From Micromonospora chersina (GTDB lineage: Bacteria; Actinomycetota; Actinomycetes; Mycobacteriales; Micromonosporaceae), in NCBI RefSeq assembly GCF_900091475.1, contig NZ_FMIB01000002.1, positions 1,240,001 to 1,304,000 on the forward strand: a stretch of 64,000 bases of DNA, given 5' to 3'. This document shows positions 16,888 to 23,945 of the stretch, one piece after another. Numbering within the stretch: the stretch's first letter is position 1; each line of letters begins with the position of its first letter. The notes under the pieces were generated by a model, which saw only the letters and a program-made list of their open reading frames with translations, was not told the DNA's origin and searched no databases. The position numbers were made by a program, and so were the translations under genes.

Positions 16888-17517
16888 TCAGGTCATCCGG
16901 TCGCGCAGCAGCCGGACGCCGTCGCCGTCGAGTTCGTCAAGCACCGCGGGCCGGCCTGTCATGGCGAGCATGACCGCTTCTGCCGTACCCCGCACCACCG
17001 GGCCACTCCCCCAGGCCCAGTCCGCGTCCGGCGCCTCGAACCGGAGCCCGTCGAGTCGCCCTCTGCGCACGAAGAAGCCCCGGGCGCGGCGGCTCACCAG
17101 GAAGTGCAACGACACCCGCAGCCGGTCCGGGTGCAGCTCGTGCGGCAGGCCGAGCGGTCGGCGGATGTCCTGCCCGTGGATCTGCAGATCGGTGAGTTGG
17201 CCCCGGTATCCGACGATGGGTGGGCGGAACCGCCTCTCCGCGTTGTCCCGCAACAGCCCTGCGATCCGGTGGGCCGGCTCCCGGGCCACAACCTGCGCCA
17301 GCCGGGCGTTGAGCTGGTGGAGGTTGAAGCCGCTGCGCAGCATCAACGGCAGCAACGAGCGGCGCGGCGCGGCGAACGGCGACACGAGATGGGCGGCCAC
17401 TTCCCGGACCGTCCACGAGCCGCACAGGCTCGGTGTCTCCAACTGCTCGATGCTCAACGATTCGACCAGATCAGCGGCCCGACGCCGCTCGGCTGCGATC
17501 ATCCCCGTGAGTTCCAT
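16888..17517 (-). CDS. Maleylpyruvate isomerase-family mycothiol-dependent enzyme
   Basis: 209 residues with the DinB-like fold of the TIGR03083/MDMPI group: CGSWTVREVAAHLVSP carries the first His ligand, and LTDLQIHGQDIRRPLG carries the second His with the adjacent acidic residue. The C-terminal domain (about 130-209) fits the SCP2-like MDMPI_C part. Members use mycothiol as cofactor or substrate and are restricted to actinobacteria. It is convergent with the GNAT gene, 24 bp apart. Confidence 0.85.
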   Translation of the reverse strand: MELTGMIAAERRRAADLVESLSIEQLETPSLCGSWTVREVAAHLVSPFAAPRRSLLPLMLRSGFNLHQLNARLAQVVAREPAHRIAGLLRDNAERRFRPPIVGYRGQLTDLQIHGQDIRRPLGLPHELHPDRLRVSLHFLVSRRARGFFVRRGRLDGLRFEAPDADWAWGSGPVVRGTAEAVMLAMTGRPAVLDELDGDGVRLLRDRMT

Positions 17518-17585
17518 GAAGTGAGGCTACTGACCACAGTGGGCTGTTGCTGACCGCTCGGAAGCCTTGCACGCGGCGGGCATGC

Positions 17586-17795
17586 GGTGATGATCTACAG
17601 CCGGCGGTTCGGTGGGCGACCCGCGCGCCACCTAAGCGATGTCGCGGAGCCGTAGTCGCCCCGCCGGTTCGCGAGAGTCCCGGAAACACGGTCGTCTCAC
17701 CGACCGAGCTCGGTGGTGGCATCCCAATCAGGCGCCCATCGGCTGTGCCGCCGGTCGTCCGGGCGTCCGCCCCCACCGGTCGGCGGGTTGGTCCC
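17586..17795. repeat. Dispersed repeat R1, copy B
   Basis: A compact copy of the segments at 14886-14960 and 15306-15456, including two identical 21-bp cores (17746-17766 and 17772-17792) spaced almost as in copy A. It fills most of the 349-bp gap between the mycothiol-type enzyme and the DHFR-like gene; I see no gene in that gap. Copy A and copy B differ enough to be old duplicates. Confidence 0.6.
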
Positions 17796-17866
17796 TGGCC
17801 AGCCGATGATTCTGAGATGCTGCGGCGGTCCACCTGTCGACGCCACCAACTCGAAGGGACCCTGCG

Positions 17867-18481
17867 ATGGCAAAGGTCATCTCCACGCTGTTCATCTCGG
17901 CCGACGGCGTGGCCGAGATCGACCCGGACTGGCACTTTCCGTACTTCGACGAGAACATGGGCCGCGCCGTCGGCGAGGACTACGACACCGCTGACGTCAT
18001 GCTCATCGGCCGGGAGACCTACGACAGCTTCGCCGGCGCCTGGCCCGACCGCGAGGCCGCCGGCGGCGAGGACGCGGTCTTCGCCAAGCAGCTCGGGGAC
18101 ATGCGCAAGGTCGTCGTCTCGCGCCAGCAGCTGGAGTTCACCTGGCGCAACTCGGAGCTGATCAAGGGCGACCTTGTCGACGCGGTCACCGCGCTCAAGG
18201 CCGATGCCGGCAGCAAAGGCATCCTCATCCCGGGGTCGATCTCCGTGGTGCAGCAACTGCTCGCCGCCGGGCTGGTCGACGAGCTGCGCCTGCTGGTGCA
18301 TCCGGTGGCGGCACGCAAGGGCCGCAGGCTGTTCGACGACGGCGACACGCCGTACCACTTCCAGGTGACAGCGACGGAGGCCTTCCCGACGGGCGTGATC
18401 CGCGTGATCTACGCGCCGACCGCGGCACCGGAGAAGGTCGGCTACGCCGACGTCACGGACCAGGTGCCCGCTGGCAGCTAG
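17867..18481 (+). CDS. Dihydrofolate reductase-family (RibD C-terminal-like) protein
   Basis: 204 residues; AAGGGA lies before the ATG. The RibD_C/DHFR-like fold is shown by KVISTLFISADGVAEI, DVMLIGRETYDSFAGAWP, the middle strand RKVVVSR and the NADPH-loop region IPGSISVVQQLLAAGLVDEL followed by LLVHPVAARKGRRLF. The true DHFR folate-binding residues are not all present, so this is one of the many actinobacterial DHFR-family oxidoreductases of unknown substrate. Stand-alone gene. Confidence 0.87.
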   Translation: MAKVISTLFISADGVAEIDPDWHFPYFDENMGRAVGEDYDTADVMLIGRETYDSFAGAWPDREAAGGEDAVFAKQLGDMRKVVVSRQQLEFTWRNSELIKGDLVDAVTALKADAGSKGILIPGSISVVQQLLAAGLVDELRLLVHPVAARKGRRLFDDGDTPYHFQVTATEAFPTGVIRVIYAPTAAPEKVGYADVTDQVPAGS

Positions 18482-18499
18482 TCGTGGTGATGGCGGGCG

Positions 18500-18578
18500 C
18501 TGGTCGGCGGAAGTCCTCCGAGTGCGGCGTGGCGCCGTGGGTGTACCACTCGAGCCATGGGGCAAGGGCGGCTGCTCG
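18500..18578. repeat. Dispersed repeat R2, copy A
   Basis: Shares GTCCTCCGAGT, a CGCCG core, TACC-CTC-AG and ATGGGGCAAGGGC in the same order with 19676-19754. Each copy lies just 3' of an enzyme gene on the same strand. No coding capacity is evident. Confidence 0.5.
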
Positions 18579-18679
18579 GTCATCGTTGCCTTGCGGACAG
18601 GGTGCCGATGAGTTTCCGTCCCGCCAGGCGTCCACCTCTGAGCAGTCGCCCTCGTCCGACTCGACGCAAACCACCGGCG

Positions 18680-18698
18680 GGGACACGTAGCGTGTCCC
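18680..18698. promoter_or_regulatory. Perfect inverted repeat upstream of the leader-hydrolase unit
   Basis: GGGACACGTAGCGTGTCCC: 7-bp arms with a 5-bp centre, 42 bp before the ATG of the 20-codon leader. It could be a repressor operator or an RNA hairpin in the 5' leader. No regulator gene lies alongside, so the cognate protein would be encoded elsewhere. Confidence 0.5.
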
Positions 18699-18740
18699 TC
18701 CCCGCGCCACCGGCCCACGACGCCACCCTGGAGGTACCTG

Positions 18741-18803
18741 ATGTATCCGACGGTCCACCCGTTCCGCACGTCCGGCGGCATCAACCCGACGGCGGAGGCG
18801 TGA
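18741..18803 (+). CDS. 20-residue leader peptide coupled to the downstream hydrolase
   Basis: ATG at 18741 with a GGAGG 6-7 bases upstream, reading MYPTVHPFRTSGGINPTAEA and ending in a TGA at 18801-18803 whose last base is the first of the hydrolase ATG (TGATG). The strong ribosome-binding site and the one-base stop/start overlap argue for real translation and for translational coupling. The hydrolase also has its own GGAGG inside the leader's last codons. No family recognised; the sequence has no run of a single amino acid suggesting attenuation. Confidence 0.5.
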   Translation: MYPTVHPFRTSGGINPTAEA

Positions 18804-19642
18804 TGACGACGGTCGAGGCGAACGGTGTCACGCTCGGAGTCGAGCACTTCGGCGACAGGGCTGCGCCGCTCGTCCTGCTCGCGGGCGGCACGACCATGCT
18901 CTCCTGGCCCGACGCACTCTGCGAGGCGCTCGCGCGCGGCGGGCGCCATGTGGTGCGGTACGACCTGCGCGATTCCGGCGGGTCGACCACCGCCGATCCC
19001 GAGGCTCCGGCGTACACGCTGCGCGATCTTGCCGCCGACGCCGCGGCGCTCGCCCGCGAACTCGACGACCGGCCGGCGCACCTGGCTGGCATCGGCGTCG
19101 GCGGGATGGTCGCCCAGGTCGCCGCGCTCGACCACCCGGACGCGTTCTCGGCGCTCACCCTCGTCGGAACGCGGCCCGTCGCTCCTGGCCCGGTCGACGA
19201 CGACCTGCCCGATCATGACGCGGCGACGATGGGCCGGCTGTTCTCGCATGCGATGCCCGACTGGTCCGACCGCGCCGCGGTGGCCGAGTTCGCCGCCGAA
19301 GGCGCGCAGATTCTCGGTGACGACCCCGTCGCCGCGCGCGCGACCGCCGAGCGCAGATGGGACCGCACGCCGGGCACGGACCCCGCGGTGCAGATGGCCA
19401 ACCATCTGGGCACGGTGTTCGCCAAGCTCGACTGCACGCCGCGCTGGCGCGAGCGCCTTCACGAGCTCGCGATCCCGACGCTGGTGGTGCACGGTCGCCG
19501 CGACCCGTTCTTCCCCGTCGGCAACGGCGAAGCGCTCGCACGCGAGATCCCCGGTGCGCGGCTACTCGTGCTCGAACGGGCCGCGACGGCTATCCCCGAT
19601 GCCGCCGCCGGTGAGGTGGCGGGGGCGATGCTCGCGCTCTAA
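18803..19642 (+). CDS. Alpha/beta-hydrolase fold protein lacking the catalytic Ser and His
   Basis: 279 residues from the ATG at 18803 (GGAGG upstream). The fold is close to the RdmC-like esterase group: LVLLAGGTTMLSWPDALCEA, VVRYDLRDSGGSTT and PTLVVHGRRDPFFPVGNGEA are all in place. The nucleophile elbow, however, reads AGIGVGGMVAQ: Val stands where the Ser of G-x-S-x-G should be. The C-terminal block reads ERAATAIPDAAAG, with Thr where the catalytic His is usual. Only the Asp position is kept. A hydrolytic role is therefore unlikely; a binding or regulatory role is possible. Confidence 0.85.
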   Translation: MTTVEANGVTLGVEHFGDRAAPLVLLAGGTTMLSWPDALCEALARGGRHVVRYDLRDSGGSTTADPEAPAYTLRDLAADAAALARELDDRPAHLAGIGVGGMVAQVAALDHPDAFSALTLVGTRPVAPGPVDDDLPDHDAATMGRLFSHAMPDWSDRAAVAEFAAEGAQILGDDPVAARATAERRWDRTPGTDPAVQMANHLGTVFAKLDCTPRWRERLHELAIPTLVVHGRRDPFFPVGNGEALAREIPGARLLVLERAATAIPDAAAGEVAGAMLAL

Positions 19643-19675
19643 TTGCGCCCCGCCATCACGTTTATCGTGACGGGA

Positions 19676-19754
19676 GGCTGGTTGACGGCAGTCCTCCGAG
19701 TACGGGTGACGCCGCTGAGCGTCCTACCGCTCAAGCGATGGGGCAAGGGCTCGG
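19676..19754. repeat. Dispersed repeat R2, copy B, with adjacent weak hairpin
   Basis: Matches 18500-18578 in the order of its conserved blocks. Immediately 5', bases 19653-19673 form a stem (CCATCACG / CGTGACGG, one mismatch, TTTAT loop) that may terminate the hydrolase transcript. The following 19755-19969 holds no gene that I can support. Confidence 0.45.
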
Positions 19755-19969
19755 CTCCCAGATTGGCGACGCGGCCCTTGGCGTCGTTGCTCAGGGTGTA
19801 ACCGAACTCGGGGTCCTTCCTGTGCTTCCTGTTCCTCGAGGTTGCCTGGCGCCACAGCGCAACGACCAGCGAACGTGGGCTGATACGGCACCAGCTGCGG
19901 CCGAACGGGTCCCGATCGGTGTCGGCGTCGCCGAATCAGTTGATGTCCGTCAACCCCTAGCGTTGAGTC

Positions 19970-20053
19970 ATGAAGCTGAGAATCGTCCTTACGTTGGCCG
20001 CTCTCGCCACTCTGCTCTACGCCGTCGGCGCACCGCACGAGCACGGCGGCTGA
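19970..20053 (+). CDS. 27-residue microprotein, first of a tandem pair
   Basis: ATG 19970 to TGA 20051-20053. One hydrophobic helix (IVLTLAALATLLYAVGAP) with a basic start MKLR and a charged C-terminal HEHGG. It resembles a signal peptide or single-span peptide. The next ORF encodes a near copy (21 of 27 residues identical), the strongest evidence that both are real genes. The ribosome-binding site is weak. Confidence 0.6.
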   Translation: MKLRIVLTLAALATLLYAVGAPHEHGG

Positions 20054-20065
20054 GGTCCGTCGAGC

Positions 20066-20149
20066 ATGAGAGCCCGCATCGTCCTGTTGCTCGTCGCGCT
20101 TGCCACCCTGCTCTACGCCGTCGGCGCACCGTACGACCACGGCGGCTAA
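20066..20149 (+). CDS. 27-residue microprotein, second of a tandem pair
   Basis: ATG 20066 to TAA 20147-20149, with the same length and layout as its neighbour: MRAR, helix IVLLLVALATLLYAVGAP, then YDHGG. Differences from the first copy are mostly conservative (K/R, E/D, H/Y, A/V), which suggests selection on the protein. Its stop codon directly abuts the GTG start of the DUF5317 gene (no gap), so the two are probably co-translated. Confidence 0.62.
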   Translation: MRARIVLLLVALATLLYAVGAPYDHGG

Positions 20150-20767
20150 GTGTCCGTCTTCCTCCTCGGCCCCGTCCTGGTCGGTCTGGCCGCCGGGTAC
20201 CTCACGGGCGGCCGGCTGCGGCAGCTTGCCCGTCAGCCGCTGCGGGGCGTCCGGCTGCTGTACGCTGCCGCCGCCGGACAGCTGCTGGGCCACGTGCCGC
20301 CGGGCTCCCGCCTGCTCTCCTCGGCCGCACAACGGTGGCTGACCGCACTGGTGTTCAGCATGGTCGGCGTCGCGCTGCTGCTCAATCTGGCGCGCCTGTC
20401 CCGGCCGGCCCGCGCCGGCGTCGCCGCGCTCCTCGCCGGGGCGGCATTGAACGCGGCCGCCATCGTGCCCAACGGGCACATGCCGGTGGCGCCAGCCGCG
20501 CTGGGCGAGATCGGGGGCGTTCCGACTGACACCACCCTGGATCCCCACCACACCGTCAGCACCGAGACGACCCGGTTGGCGGCGCTCGGCGATGTTCTGC
20601 CCGTGCCGTGGCTGAACCTGGTGATCAGCATCGGCGACATCGTCGTCATGGTGGGTGTGGCCCTGCTCATCGCCGCCCTCATGCACGACCATCCGCCAGG
20701 CCGATGCCGGATCGTCGGCGCGCTGGACCGACGCCGGAACCACAATCGTCCCGAGGCCAACGGCTAG
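20150..20767 (+). CDS. DUF5317 family membrane protein
   Basis: 205 residues from the GTG at 20150, which follows the microprotein stop with no gap. The N-terminus GPVLVGLAAGYLTGGRLRQL is the DUF5317 signature (helix, then G-G-R-L-x-x-L). Four to five hydrophobic segments follow, with a polar loop at about 105-145 and a Pro/His-rich cytoplasmic tail. Function unknown. Coupling to the two microproteins suggests they may form a membrane complex; this is inference. Confidence 0.75.
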   Translation: MSVFLLGPVLVGLAAGYLTGGRLRQLARQPLRGVRLLYAAAAGQLLGHVPPGSRLLSSAAQRWLTALVFSMVGVALLLNLARLSRPARAGVAALLAGAALNAAAIVPNGHMPVAPAALGEIGGVPTDTTLDPHHTVSTETTRLAALGDVLPVPWLNLVISIGDIVVMVGVALLIAALMHDHPPGRCRIVGALDRRRNHNRPEANG

Positions 20768-21107
20768 TAGGCCTCAGGCGGGGCCGACACCCGGGTGGGC
20801 TGGACCGCTACACGTGAGGCCGCCCGGCCGAAGCGGACCACACGCGGCTGTGCCCTGTCCGGGCCGCCGCACGAGGCCTGGTCCGTCGGTCAGCGGGAAA
20901 CGGCCCGCACAGGTCGATTTCGGTCCCACGGCATGTCACCCTCCCCTAGGCTGAAGCTCTGGACGAGGCGTCGGCGCGATGTGCCGAATCGCGGACAGAT
21001 GAAGCGATCGGTCGATGCGCTCGCCGTCCAGCTCGGTCACCATCCGGGCAGCGCTCGTCAACTGCGCGGCGGGTGACTCCCGCGCGGTTCGGAGACAGGA
21101 GCCAGAC
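20768..21107. other. Intergenic region without recognisable gene
   Basis: 340 bp between DUF5317 and the NAD(P)-binding protein. Short frames here lack start context and coding character. The last 30 bp hold the AGGAG ribosome-binding site of the next gene. Confidence 0.6.
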
Positions 21108-21872
21108 ATGCGTGTGGCCGTCGCCGGCGCATCCGGCAACATCGGGTCCCTGACCGTGGCCGCGCTGCGCCGCCACGGCCACGAGCCCGTACCGATGAGC
21201 CGGTCGCAGGGTGTCGACCTGGTGGCCGGCACCGGGCTGGACGCGGCGTTGGCCGGGGTCGACGCCGTCATCGACGCGATCAGCGCGCCGGCGGCCGACC
21301 GCGAGGCCACCGAGGCGTACTTCGGCGCCGCCACCCGGAACCTCCTGAGGGCTGAGCAGGATGCGGGGGTTCGGCATCACGTCCTGCTGTCCATCGTCGA
21401 GGTGCACCGCATCGCCGGAACCGCGCACTACTCCGGCAAGCGGGAGCAGGAGCGCCTGGTCTCGGCCGGCGACGTGCCGTGGACCATCGTGCCCTTCACC
21501 CAGTTCTTCGACTTCGGCGCGACGGTGGCCACGTGGACCGAGAGTGACGGCACCGCCTATCTCGCGCCGCTGCTCATCCAGCCGATCGCGCCGGCCGACG
21601 TCGCGGAGGTCCTCGCGGAGGTGGCCGCCGGGCCGCCGCAGGGACGTCACCGCGACGTGGCCGGGCCCGATCGGCACGATCTCGTGGACATGGCCCGCCG
21701 GACCCACCGGGCGCTCGGGCGCGAGGTGAAACTCGTCCCCACCTGGGAGGCGATCCTCGGCCCGGACATGGCGGGCAATGTGCTGCTGCCCGGACCGGAC
21801 GCCCGTATAGCGCCCACGACCTTCGACGACTGGCTCGCGGAACAGGAGGCGAACCGGGCGCGGTCGCAGTAG
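21108..21872 (+). CDS. NmrA-like NAD(P)-binding protein (atypical SDR)
   Basis: 254 residues from the ATG at 21108, preceded by AGGAG; an in-frame extension to 21015 lacks support. The Rossmann start is MRVAVAGASGNIGSLTVAAL (G-x-x-G-x-x-G), then a strand with AGVDAVIDAISAP. The catalytic Tyr/Lys pair may be HYSGKREQE (YxxxK-like), and VPWTIVPFTQFFD matches the NmrA-type substrate loop. This group includes NAD(P)H sensors and quinone or ketone reductases; which one is unknown. A second, separate NmrA-like gene occurs at 52941. Confidence 0.83.
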   Translation: MRVAVAGASGNIGSLTVAALRRHGHEPVPMSRSQGVDLVAGTGLDAALAGVDAVIDAISAPAADREATEAYFGAATRNLLRAEQDAGVRHHVLLSIVEVHRIAGTAHYSGKREQERLVSAGDVPWTIVPFTQFFDFGATVATWTESDGTAYLAPLLIQPIAPADVAEVLAEVAAGPPQGRHRDVAGPDRHDLVDMARRTHRALGREVKLVPTWEAILGPDMAGNVLLPGPDARIAPTTFDDWLAEQEANRARSQ

Positions 21873-21946
21873 CGACCGTCCTGCGCGGCGCAGAGGCCAC
21901 ACGATTTCCAGGTGACGGGGAGGGAGGCCACCGAAGGGGCTCTCTC

Positions 21947-22840
21947 TCACGCCTTCGCGGCGCCCACGAGGGCGTCGATCAGCGCGCGCAGCGCGGGCTG
22001 ATCAAGTGAGATCTCCCGGACGGCGGCGTAGATGGTCCGCACCGGCTCGGGGCGGCGGACCGGGCGGATGGTGACGCCCGGGTGGCGGGTGCCAAGTCCG
22101 AGTCGGGGGATCAGGCTGACGCCGAGGCCGGCCGCGACGAATCCCTGAGCCGTGGCGTAGTCCTCCGACTTCGCCACGAAGTCCGGGCTGAAGCCCGCCG
22201 CGGCGCAGGCGTCGGTGATGGGCTCCAGGCAGGGGCCCGGCGGTTCGCTGCCGACCCAGGGTTCGCCGGCGAGGGCAGCCAGGTCGATCATCCTTCGCCC
22301 GGCGAGCGGGTGTCCGGTGGGCAGCACGGCCTGGTACGCGTCATCGAGCAGGTGCATCAGGCGAATGCCCGGGCGGCTCTCGTCGCTGGTCCGGCGGACC
22401 ACGATGGCCAGGTCGGCGTGTCCCTGCTCCACGTCCGGCAGTGGATCGTTCGGATCCGTCAGCTTCGGGTCGATCGTCACGTCGGGGTGCTCGCGCCGGA
22501 GCCGGGCGAGCGCGGGCGCCAGCAGGGTTGGGCCGACCGAGGCGAAGTAGCGGATCCCCAGCCGACCGGTACGGCCGGCCCGCAGGTCGGCCAACGCGGT
22601 CTCGGCCGCAGCCACATGTTGGCTGATGACGGCCGCGTGTTCGGTGAGCAGGCGTCCCGCCGCGGTGGGCCGCACGCCCCGGCCGACGCGTTCGAGCAGC
22701 GCGATCCCGGTCTCCTTCTCCAGTGCCGCCACCTGCTGGCTCACGGCGGAGGGGGTGTAACCCAGGTGCGCCGCCGCCGCGGTCACCGATCCGCTGGTGA
22801 CCACCGCCCGCAACACCTGCATCCGCCTGACGTCAATCAT
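21947..22840 (-). CDS. LysR-family regulator divergent from an EamA transporter
   Basis: 297 residues from the ATG at 22840; the longer frame to 23083 overlaps the divergent gene. The N-terminal winged helix MQVLRAVVTSGSVTAAAAHL with YTPSAVSQQVAALEKETG fills about residues 6-60. A periplasmic-binding-like effector domain (about 90-290) follows. Probably regulates the divergent exporter at 22932. The 91-bp gap contains a short self-complementary ACGTACGT at about 22855 and an AT-rich stretch suited to a promoter. Confidence 0.9.
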   Translation of the reverse strand: MIDVRRMQVLRAVVTSGSVTAAAAHLGYTPSAVSQQVAALEKETGIALLERVGRGVRPTAAGRLLTEHAAVISQHVAAAETALADLRAGRTGRLGIRYFASVGPTLLAPALARLRREHPDVTIDPKLTDPNDPLPDVEQGHADLAIVVRRTSDESRPGIRLMHLLDDAYQAVLPTGHPLAGRRMIDLAALAGEPWVGSEPPGPCLEPITDACAAAGFSPDFVAKSEDYATAQGFVAAGLGVSLIPRLGLGTRHPGVTIRPVRRPEPVRTIYAAVREISLDQPALRALIDALVGAAKA

Positions 22841-22931
22841 GCAGCGGACCTTAACGTACGTGCAGAACCTTTTGCTTGTTCTTCCAGGTCCGGTCCGGCA
22901 CCGTTCACGGAGAGAGATCGAGGAGGTCCGG

Positions 22932-23945
22932 GTGAACGGTGTGGCGGGCAGCGCATGGGCGTGGACGCGGGTGGGCGTGCTCGCCCTGCTGTGGGGCTCG
23001 ACATTTCTCTGGATCGAGCTGGCCCTGGACGCCTTGACTCCGGTCCAGGTCACCCTCAGCCGGTGCGTACTCGGAACGGCCACCCTGCTGGTCGCATGCC
23101 TCGGCTCGGGTCGGCGGCTGCCTCGGGATCGGGCGGTCTGGGGTCACCTCGTCGTGGCCGGGTTCTTCTGCAACGCCCTGCCGTTCGCCCTGTTCAGCAT
23201 CGGCCAGCAGACCGTCGACTCCGGGGTGGCCGGCGTGCTGAACGCGACGACCCCGTTGTGGTCCCTGCTCATCGGTGTCGTCATCGGCTCCGAGCGCGGA
23301 CTCCGGCCGGTCCGGCTGGCCGGACTCCTGCTCGGATTCGCCGGGGTCATGCTCATCTTCGCGCCATGGCAGACGACCGGGCCGGTCGGCTGGGGCGCCC
23401 TCGCCATCGTCGCCGCGGCCGCGAGCTATGCCGTCGGCTTCGCGTACATGGGCCGCAACCTGGTCGGCAGGGGCATCCCCACCATCTCGCTGTCGACCGC
23501 GCAGCTCATCGTGGCGACCGGACTGACCTCGCTGACCCTGCCGGCCGAAGGCCTGACACCGATCGAGATCGACCCGAAGATCGCGCTCGCCGTCGTGGTC
23601 CTGGGCGTCGTCGCCACCGGGATCACCTTCCACCTCACCTACCGGATCATCGCCGCCGAGGGCGCCACCAACGCCGCGACGGTCGGCTATCTGCTGCCGG
23701 TGGTCTCGGTGGCGCTGGGGGCCATCGTGCTCGACGAGCGTTTCAGCCTCCGGGTCGCCGCCGGGATGGTGGTCGTGCTCGTCGGGGTCGGCCTGACCCG
23801 CCGGCAGAAGCGGGCCCCGTCGCCATCGGCGCCGGCGGAAATCCCACCATTGTTGAGCCCCCCGGCCCCTCGGCTCCGGAACGTGATCTTCGCAGACCTG
23901 TCGGACGGGGGGCGTGGCCAATACTCTGAGCCCCGTCGGCACTAA
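22932..23945 (+). CDS. EamA/DMT-family membrane transporter
   Basis: 337 residues from the GTG at 22932, with AGGAGGTC close upstream. Ten hydrophobic helices in two EamA repeats; the first starts VLALLWGSTFLWIELAL and the second has LSTAQLIVATGLTSL. DMT exporters move amino acids or other small metabolites outward. About 40 residues of Pro-rich and charged tail follow the last helix (after LTRRQKRA). Regulated, by position, by the divergent LysR protein; its substrate is unknown. Confidence 0.87.
   Translation: MNGVAGSAWAWTRVGVLALLWGSTFLWIELALDALTPVQVTLSRCVLGTATLLVACLGSGRRLPRDRAVWGHLVVAGFFCNALPFALFSIGQQTVDSGVAGVLNATTPLWSLLIGVVIGSERGLRPVRLAGLLLGFAGVMLIFAPWQTTGPVGWGALAIVAAAASYAVGFAYMGRNLVGRGIPTISLSTAQLIVATGLTSLTLPAEGLTPIEIDPKIALAVVVLGVVATGITFHLTYRIIAAEGATNAATVGYLLPVVSVALGAIVLDERFSLRVAAGMVVVLVGVGLTRRQKRAPSPSAPAEIPPLLSPPAPRLRNVIFADLSDGGRGQYSEPRRH

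Follow-up and report, generated by a model that had tools for sequence, protein, structure and literature searches.

Tandem membrane micropeptides with variable C-terminal tails beside actinomycete DUF5317 genes: possible precursors of displayed or released signals

Short hydrophobic precursors that carry a signal at the C terminus, some of them ending in Gly-Gly, are known as the SHP peptides of Rgg systems, and multi-precursor RiPP clusters join a constant leader to a variable core in many tandem genes. As set out in the parts of PMC10075063 that deal with them, the quorum-sensing propeptides of Bacillota consist of a basic N terminus, a hydrophobic stretch and a C-terminal signal of 4–10 residues, and the signals of Actinomycetota are typically enzyme-made small molecules, as against peptides in Bacillota. 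In the 64,000-nucleotide stretch of Micromonospora chersina DNA analysed here (the window), two tiny open reading frames (ORFs) precede a DUF5317 gene, with the following features.

19931..19947, forward strand: conserved block CCGAATCAGTTGATGTC upstream of peptide 1, from the alignment of 8 same-genus loci; putatively functional
19958..19963, forward strand: -10-like hexamer TAGCGT (TAGCAT in relatives), 6 nt before the ATG; putative promoter element
19970..20053, forward strand: precursor peptide 1, ATG to TGA, 27 aa, tail HEHGG
20066..20149, forward strand: precursor peptide 2, ATG to TAA, 27 aa, tail YDHGG
20150..20767, forward strand: DUF5317 membrane protein (PF17248), GTG to TAG, 205 aa

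The two peptides, MKLRIVLTLAALATLLYAVGAPHEHGG and MRARIVLLLVALATLLYAVGAPYDHGG, share 21 of 27 residues and differ at 6, and the first-pass annotation had rightly described them as near-identical twins with an acidic-His-Gly-Gly tail. It had also placed the stop of peptide 2 directly against the DUF5317 start, which the sequence confirms (TAA followed by GTG without a gap). The stop of peptide 1 lies 12 nt ahead of the start of peptide 2, and this spacing, with DUF5317 starting on the next base after peptide 2, makes translational re-initiation along peptide 1, peptide 2 and DUF5317 likely. The DUF5317 protein matches PF17248 at 71 bits, above the gathering cut-off of 25, and no Pfam family matched the window peptides. 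The closest database protein, at 94 percent, carries a Micromonospora chersina name. Upstream, the CCGAATCAGTTGATGTC-like block is largely invariant in the 8 aligned same-genus loci, and TAGCGT or TAGCAT stands shortly before the ATG in 7 of them (L006 is deleted there), which suggests that peptide 1 may be read from a leaderless transcript set by the hexamer close to its ATG. A scan with the sigma-70 consensus found no promoter at the window locus, and likewise no terminator pattern was found there.

Codon bias indicates that both window ORFs are real genes. Among 7 peptide-1 sequences (from 4 same-genus genomes, the window's and its relatives', some being in-genome copies), the ratio of nonsynonymous to synonymous change was 0.20 in frame versus 0.82 and 7.10 in the other frames, and pairwise differences at codon positions 1, 2 and 3 numbered 68, 12 and 121; the codon-position bias whose absence, for the first-pass annotation, would have refuted its reading is present. 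Copies 1 and 2 of the window differ with pS 0.35 and pN 0.17. A profile that included both copies matched the window genome at E 2e-17 and 4e-16, with no other match in that genome at E ≤ 0.1, and a Shine-Dalgarno-like 4-mer precedes 78 of 106 precursor starts, versus 674 of 3820 random places.

These 106 distinct precursors are the family sample left by a motif and hydrophobicity filter, with members in Micromonosporaceae, Streptomyces, Actinomadura and others; some copies of a 15-copy array, the third peptide of L066, the second of L079 and the peptides of L190, L138 and L113 fall outside it. The precursors are 23–40 residues long and are built from a mostly basic N terminus, a conserved hydrophobic helix (TLATLALLLYTVGAP) closed by a nearly invariant Gly-Ala-Pro, and a C-terminal tail of 4–6 residues. 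Mean net charge is +1.83 for the N-terminal segments and -0.68 for the tails over all 106, and Lys or Arg occurs in the N-terminal segment of 96 and in the tail of 2. By the positive-inside rule, basic N termini together with tails nearly devoid of Lys and Arg would put the N terminus inside and the tail outside.

The 106 precursors share this anatomy and a variable, putative signal part with RRNPP/Phr-type propeptides, but the latter belong to Bacillota and the former to Actinomycetota; moreover, the precursors here have a linked DUF5317 gene and no conserved adjacent TPR receptor, form tandem sets of up to 15 different tails, and carry a near-invariant Gly-Ala-Pro before the tail. Because the defining TPR receptor is absent beside the window genes (no TPR match in Pfam among the 9 window proteins at 16888–23942), we do not file them as RRNPP. 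Among 10 large proteins scanned at other loci, TPR matches were above the cut-off at L053 and L056 and weak at L050. The nine window proteins scanned with Pfam also include no Rgg, and the tail, unlike the SHP signal, is polar and short; AgrB, the cysteine endopeptidase of AgrBD-type systems, is absent from the same nine. Multi-precursor RiPP clusters resemble the loci in their constant body, variable end and many tandem genes, but here no modification enzyme was recognised, the leader is a membrane helix and the core would be 4–6 residues. DUF5317, the one gene that recurs in most loci (16 of 21) and the sole Pfam family common to 17 partner proteins, could itself be an enzyme. A check for type I toxin–antitoxin RNAs gave one Rfam match far below the cut-off, undescribed antisense RNAs being invisible to Rfam.

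Loci hold from one to about fifteen copies, with 15 in Paractinoplanes durhamensis, 11 in Actinacidiphila bryophytorum and 4 in a Streptomyces, and two Catellatospora loci have two clusters each, of two or three peptides. The 106 precursors carry 51 kinds of tail, of 5 residues in 95 precursors, 4 in 7 and 6 in 4. In the 95 five-residue tails, entropy at positions 1–3 is 2.9, 3.0 and 2.6 bits, and the closing residue (position 5) is Gly in 80 tails and Ser in the other 15. Entropy is 0 to 1.7 bits across the 11 body positions nearest the tail, but of the 18 body positions that were compared, the three at the helix start vary too (1.9 to 2.4 bits). Nine of the 11 Actinacidiphila copies, with similar bodies, nearly the same ribosome-binding site and nine tails, gave a nonsynonymous/synonymous ratio of 0.22 for the body and 3.63 for the tail, and three Dactylosporangium copies have bodies free of amino-acid change and different tails. 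The contrast is weaker in the 15-copy array (0.55 for the body versus 0.89 for the tail, the latter not above 1).

Thirty clusters hold at least two precursors, and in none of them does a tail occur twice, whereas shuffling tails inside genus groups gave a mean of 4.74 clusters with a repeat, and only 20 shuffles of 20000 were free of repeats. Fourteen tails are found in more than one of these groups, on different bodies; the groups, for shuffling and sharing alike, were labelled by us on the basis of matching contigs and genus handles. Body likeness is 0.85 within a locus, 0.68 between genera for the same tail and 0.63 between genera for other tails. With body likeness highest within a locus and tails recurring across genera, bodies seem to evolve together within a genome and tails seem to keep their identity; the recurrence could reflect common descent of ancient paralogs.

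The suggestion of the first-pass annotation that peptide dose matters does not survive these counts, since copies that carry different tails are diversified rather than redundant. It is further countered by the window's second copy, which among 5 relatives compared is kept only in L003 (G097), is rewritten in L004, frameshifted in L005 and L006, and lacks its ATG in L009; the second copy is not essential. The constant helix end, the unrepeated tails, their occurrence across genera and the linked membrane protein together argue for a tail-specific function and against dose. DUF5317 is broken in two same-genus genomes, G092 and G057 (L006/L008 and L009): in G092 it is split over two frames and peptide 1 is partly deleted, so that both genes are broken, and G057 (C56) has an intact peptide and a further DUF5317.

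Tails also keep company. MTEGS accompanies HEHGG in 8 of 8 clusters (L048, L049, L052, L056, L061, L064, L066 and L079), and ATEGS or VTEGS accompanies YEHGG in 3 of 3 (L048, L049 and L053); these counts leave out L043 (several tails) and L067 (LTEGS alone), which fit neither, and many of the clusters are from Catellatospora and so not independent. Two tails within one cluster may form a matched pair. In each of the Catellatospora loci L048 and L049, the two clusters are separated by a pair of ABC transporter genes.

That the tandem peptides are coupled to DUF5317 is borne out among relatives. In 300 genomes of the bacterial family, a nine-sequence peptide profile matched at E < 0.001 in 27 and at E ≤ 0.1 in 40 (the other 13, matched only at E 0.001–0.1 and mostly inside long ORFs, were taken as chance), and the Pfam DUF5317 model matched in 29. 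The peptide was present (E < 0.001) in 26 of the 29 DUF5317 genomes versus 1 of the 271 others, both searches being assumed to cover the same 300 genomes, so that a small ORF by DUF5317 is conserved in relatives. The one peptide-only genome is G331. Three genomes have DUF5317 only, by profile: in G141 a clear, divergent GAP-type peptide adjoins DUF5317 (L103, tail AIIIHK), in G250 the peptide beside it is doubtful (L113), and in G227 no peptide was seen beside it. By motif, a peptide is present in 24 of the 29 DUF5317 loci examined besides the window (26 counting L093 and L103), leaving L089, L113 (doubtful) and L116; the 300 genomes hold 37 DUF5317 places, 7 of which had no locus read, three of these (G259 C33, G315 C109 and G097 C10) with nearby peptide matches. 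All 22 named loci carry at least one peptide, the query itself having been built from peptide neighbours, and a Nonomuraea locus found through the window DUF5317 alone has MKRVKNSPRIAQAVCALFALATLLYTVGAPWDSH directly after DUF5317. A plasmid collection gave one match, in a chromosome-size Nonomuraea record, and viral contigs gave none; a class-level search with the A5 peptide profile matched 3 of 394 genomes, including the window's own, one of them weakly (4e-4).

DUF5317 leads in most loci, and in several arrays (for example L048, L049 and L050) its stop codon overlaps the start of the first peptide; in the window's group and a small number of others the peptides lead. Five peptide clusters (L051, L053, L058, L059 and L060) lack a DUF5317 gene within the stretch that was fetched. 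The genomes of the first four (G203, G149, G048 and G057) carry DUF5317 elsewhere, which fits its acting in trans on these clusters; L060, in G331, is the exception. There, a solitary peptide with tail FEHGG (L060:6914-7003) has few predicted genes around it, in a genome without a DUF5317 match.

DUF5317 reaches beyond the peptides. At the level of the phylum, 108 of 396 genomes carry it, and a similar peptide was found at only 1 of the 30 best-scoring phylum loci (L138, where the peptide, with tail TKWA, overlaps the DUF5317 stop), so DUF5317 would have another role without peptides; several of the 30 loci are truncated at contig ends, and hydrophobic ORFs of a different kind are found near L133 and L140. 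At 4 of the 30 (L139, L144, L155 and L156), DUF5317 is fused to the N terminus of MFS transporters (PF07690/PF05977). The other role is probably the older one and is perhaps connected with transport, and the peptides would belong mainly to one DUF5317 branch.

The predicted DUF5317 structure has long helices at 2–18, 34–46, 58–78, 85–108 and 161–179, with short strands between the last two. Across 61 DUF5317 sequences, N108, L146, D148, S160, G162 and D163 never vary and M111 and P112 hardly do; a second set of 17 sequences, with array-type members among them, shows the same residues invariant, whereas His134 is invariant in the 61-sequence set only. These conserved residues (Asn, Met-Pro, Leu-Gly-Asp and Ser-x-Gly-Asp) fall within or close beside a predicted loop that, applying the positive-inside rule by eye to the model, would be outside; the peptide tail and this loop would then face the same side. 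A comparison with signal peptidase II (LspA, PF01252), which looked for sequence or fold similarity with the two Asp motifs in register and would have made DUF5317 a protease, gave no convincing match: the LspA Pfam model matched 1 of 17 members at E 1.2, hhalign probabilities were 0.1, 1.5 and 5.6 percent, the HMM matches were scattered in register, and the best Foldseek match of the predicted structure (E 5.6) was not LspA.

Our preferred reading, to which we give a probability of roughly 0.45, is that the membrane precursors display or release their short variable tails as signals that are handled by DUF5317. The N terminus would stay inside, a single helix would span the membrane and the C-terminal tail would end outside, where it may be the information-bearing part, either surface-exposed or released as a short peptide. 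Cleavage would fall before Ala-Pro, where Thr at -3 and Gly at -1 resemble a signal-peptidase site; a Gly in the -1 position is less than ideal for that enzyme and counts against the predicted cleavage. The tails may act as a set of short-range signals, like Bacillus-type propeptides, with DUF5317 as a dedicated partner that would process, export or read them. Speaking against signals are the lack of a conserved receptor at the 21 loci compared, the variation at the helix start, the spread of DUF5317 well beyond the peptides, the peptide of G331 in a genome without DUF5317, the tail ratio of 0.89 in the 15-copy array, and the possible descent of recurring tails from ancient paralogs. We hold more tentatively the wider idea of an actinomycete signalling or recognition code, in which arrays of precursors would supply a cross-genus repertoire of tails and DUF5317 would be the common processor or receptor. 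If true, antibiotic producers gain a peptide code and DUF5317 gains its first functional handle, and tails of 4–6 residues can be synthesised, which makes the idea directly testable.

We rank next, as rather unlikely, the interpretation, raised in another form by the first-pass annotation, that the peptides are one-helix subunits bound to DUF5317 in the membrane, their tails tuning or selecting a cargo or ligand in the manner of exchangeable tips. Adjacent genes on the same strand, overlapping in L048, L049 and L050, and presence or absence together in the 300 genomes are consistent with this, and the MFS fusions at 4 of 30 deep loci suggest that DUF5317 may work with transporters; however, a subunit sits poorly with the presence of as many as 15 different peptides next to a single DUF5317 gene, with the five clusters lacking a neighbouring DUF5317 (L051, L053, L058, L059 and L060), and with the peptide's being missing from most deep DUF5317 loci examined.

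We consider it improbable that the peptides are antagonistic membrane-active toxins or bacteriocins differing by strain, with DUF5317 as producer immunity: toxin–immunity pairs would be compatible with arrays, with tails that have diversified and with a membrane protein linked to them, but diversification affects a short polar tail and not the helix, different genera retain identical tails, and many tails face one DUF5317 per array, with some clusters having no linked DUF5317 at all. Slightly less probable again is that tandem duplication and gene conversion produce the arrays as a side effect, homogenising bodies and letting tails drift with little function. Bodies are indeed more alike within a locus (0.85) than same-tail bodies in other genera (0.68), decay of the window's second copy is seen in relatives, and the tail ratio of the 15-copy array (0.89) is near neutral; yet drift would not lead one to expect that no cluster in 30 repeats a tail, that tails are common to several genera, that Actinacidiphila tail changes are mostly amino-acid changing, or that Gly closes 80 of 95 five-residue tails. 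We therefore prefer displayed or released signals, followed by subunits with variable tips, antagonism with immunity, and drift.

By the profile libraries and literature searched, the peptide family is undescribed. Nothing better than E 0.04 was found for 35 peptides against Pfam (best E 0.04 and 0.073) and NCBIfam (one member at E 0.69), and four DUF5317 proteins had no NCBIfam match at E ≤ 0.1. The literature searched, outside which lie most subscription-journal papers and all preprints, held no paper on DUF5317, on the peptide motif strings or on TM0504 with Thermotoga, and topic searches of it showed nothing on the peptide family among the matches listed. The partner gene is a clear member of DUF5317 (PF17248), whose function and peptide partner are not described in that literature.

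Among the neighbours at 20 fetched loci and the window, DUF5317 is present in 16 of 21, followed by generic ABC ATPases at varying distance in 6 of 21 and a SARP/TPR regulator group in 4 of 21; other clusters reach 4 or fewer, partly from close relatives. No receptor gene is conserved beside the arrays at these 21 loci, from which 29 neighbour proteins were put to Pfam (9 window proteins and two sets of 10 from other loci). At L043, a gene for an NPP1-type (PF05630) protein (L043:9153-9917) lies upstream of the DUF5317–peptide operon.
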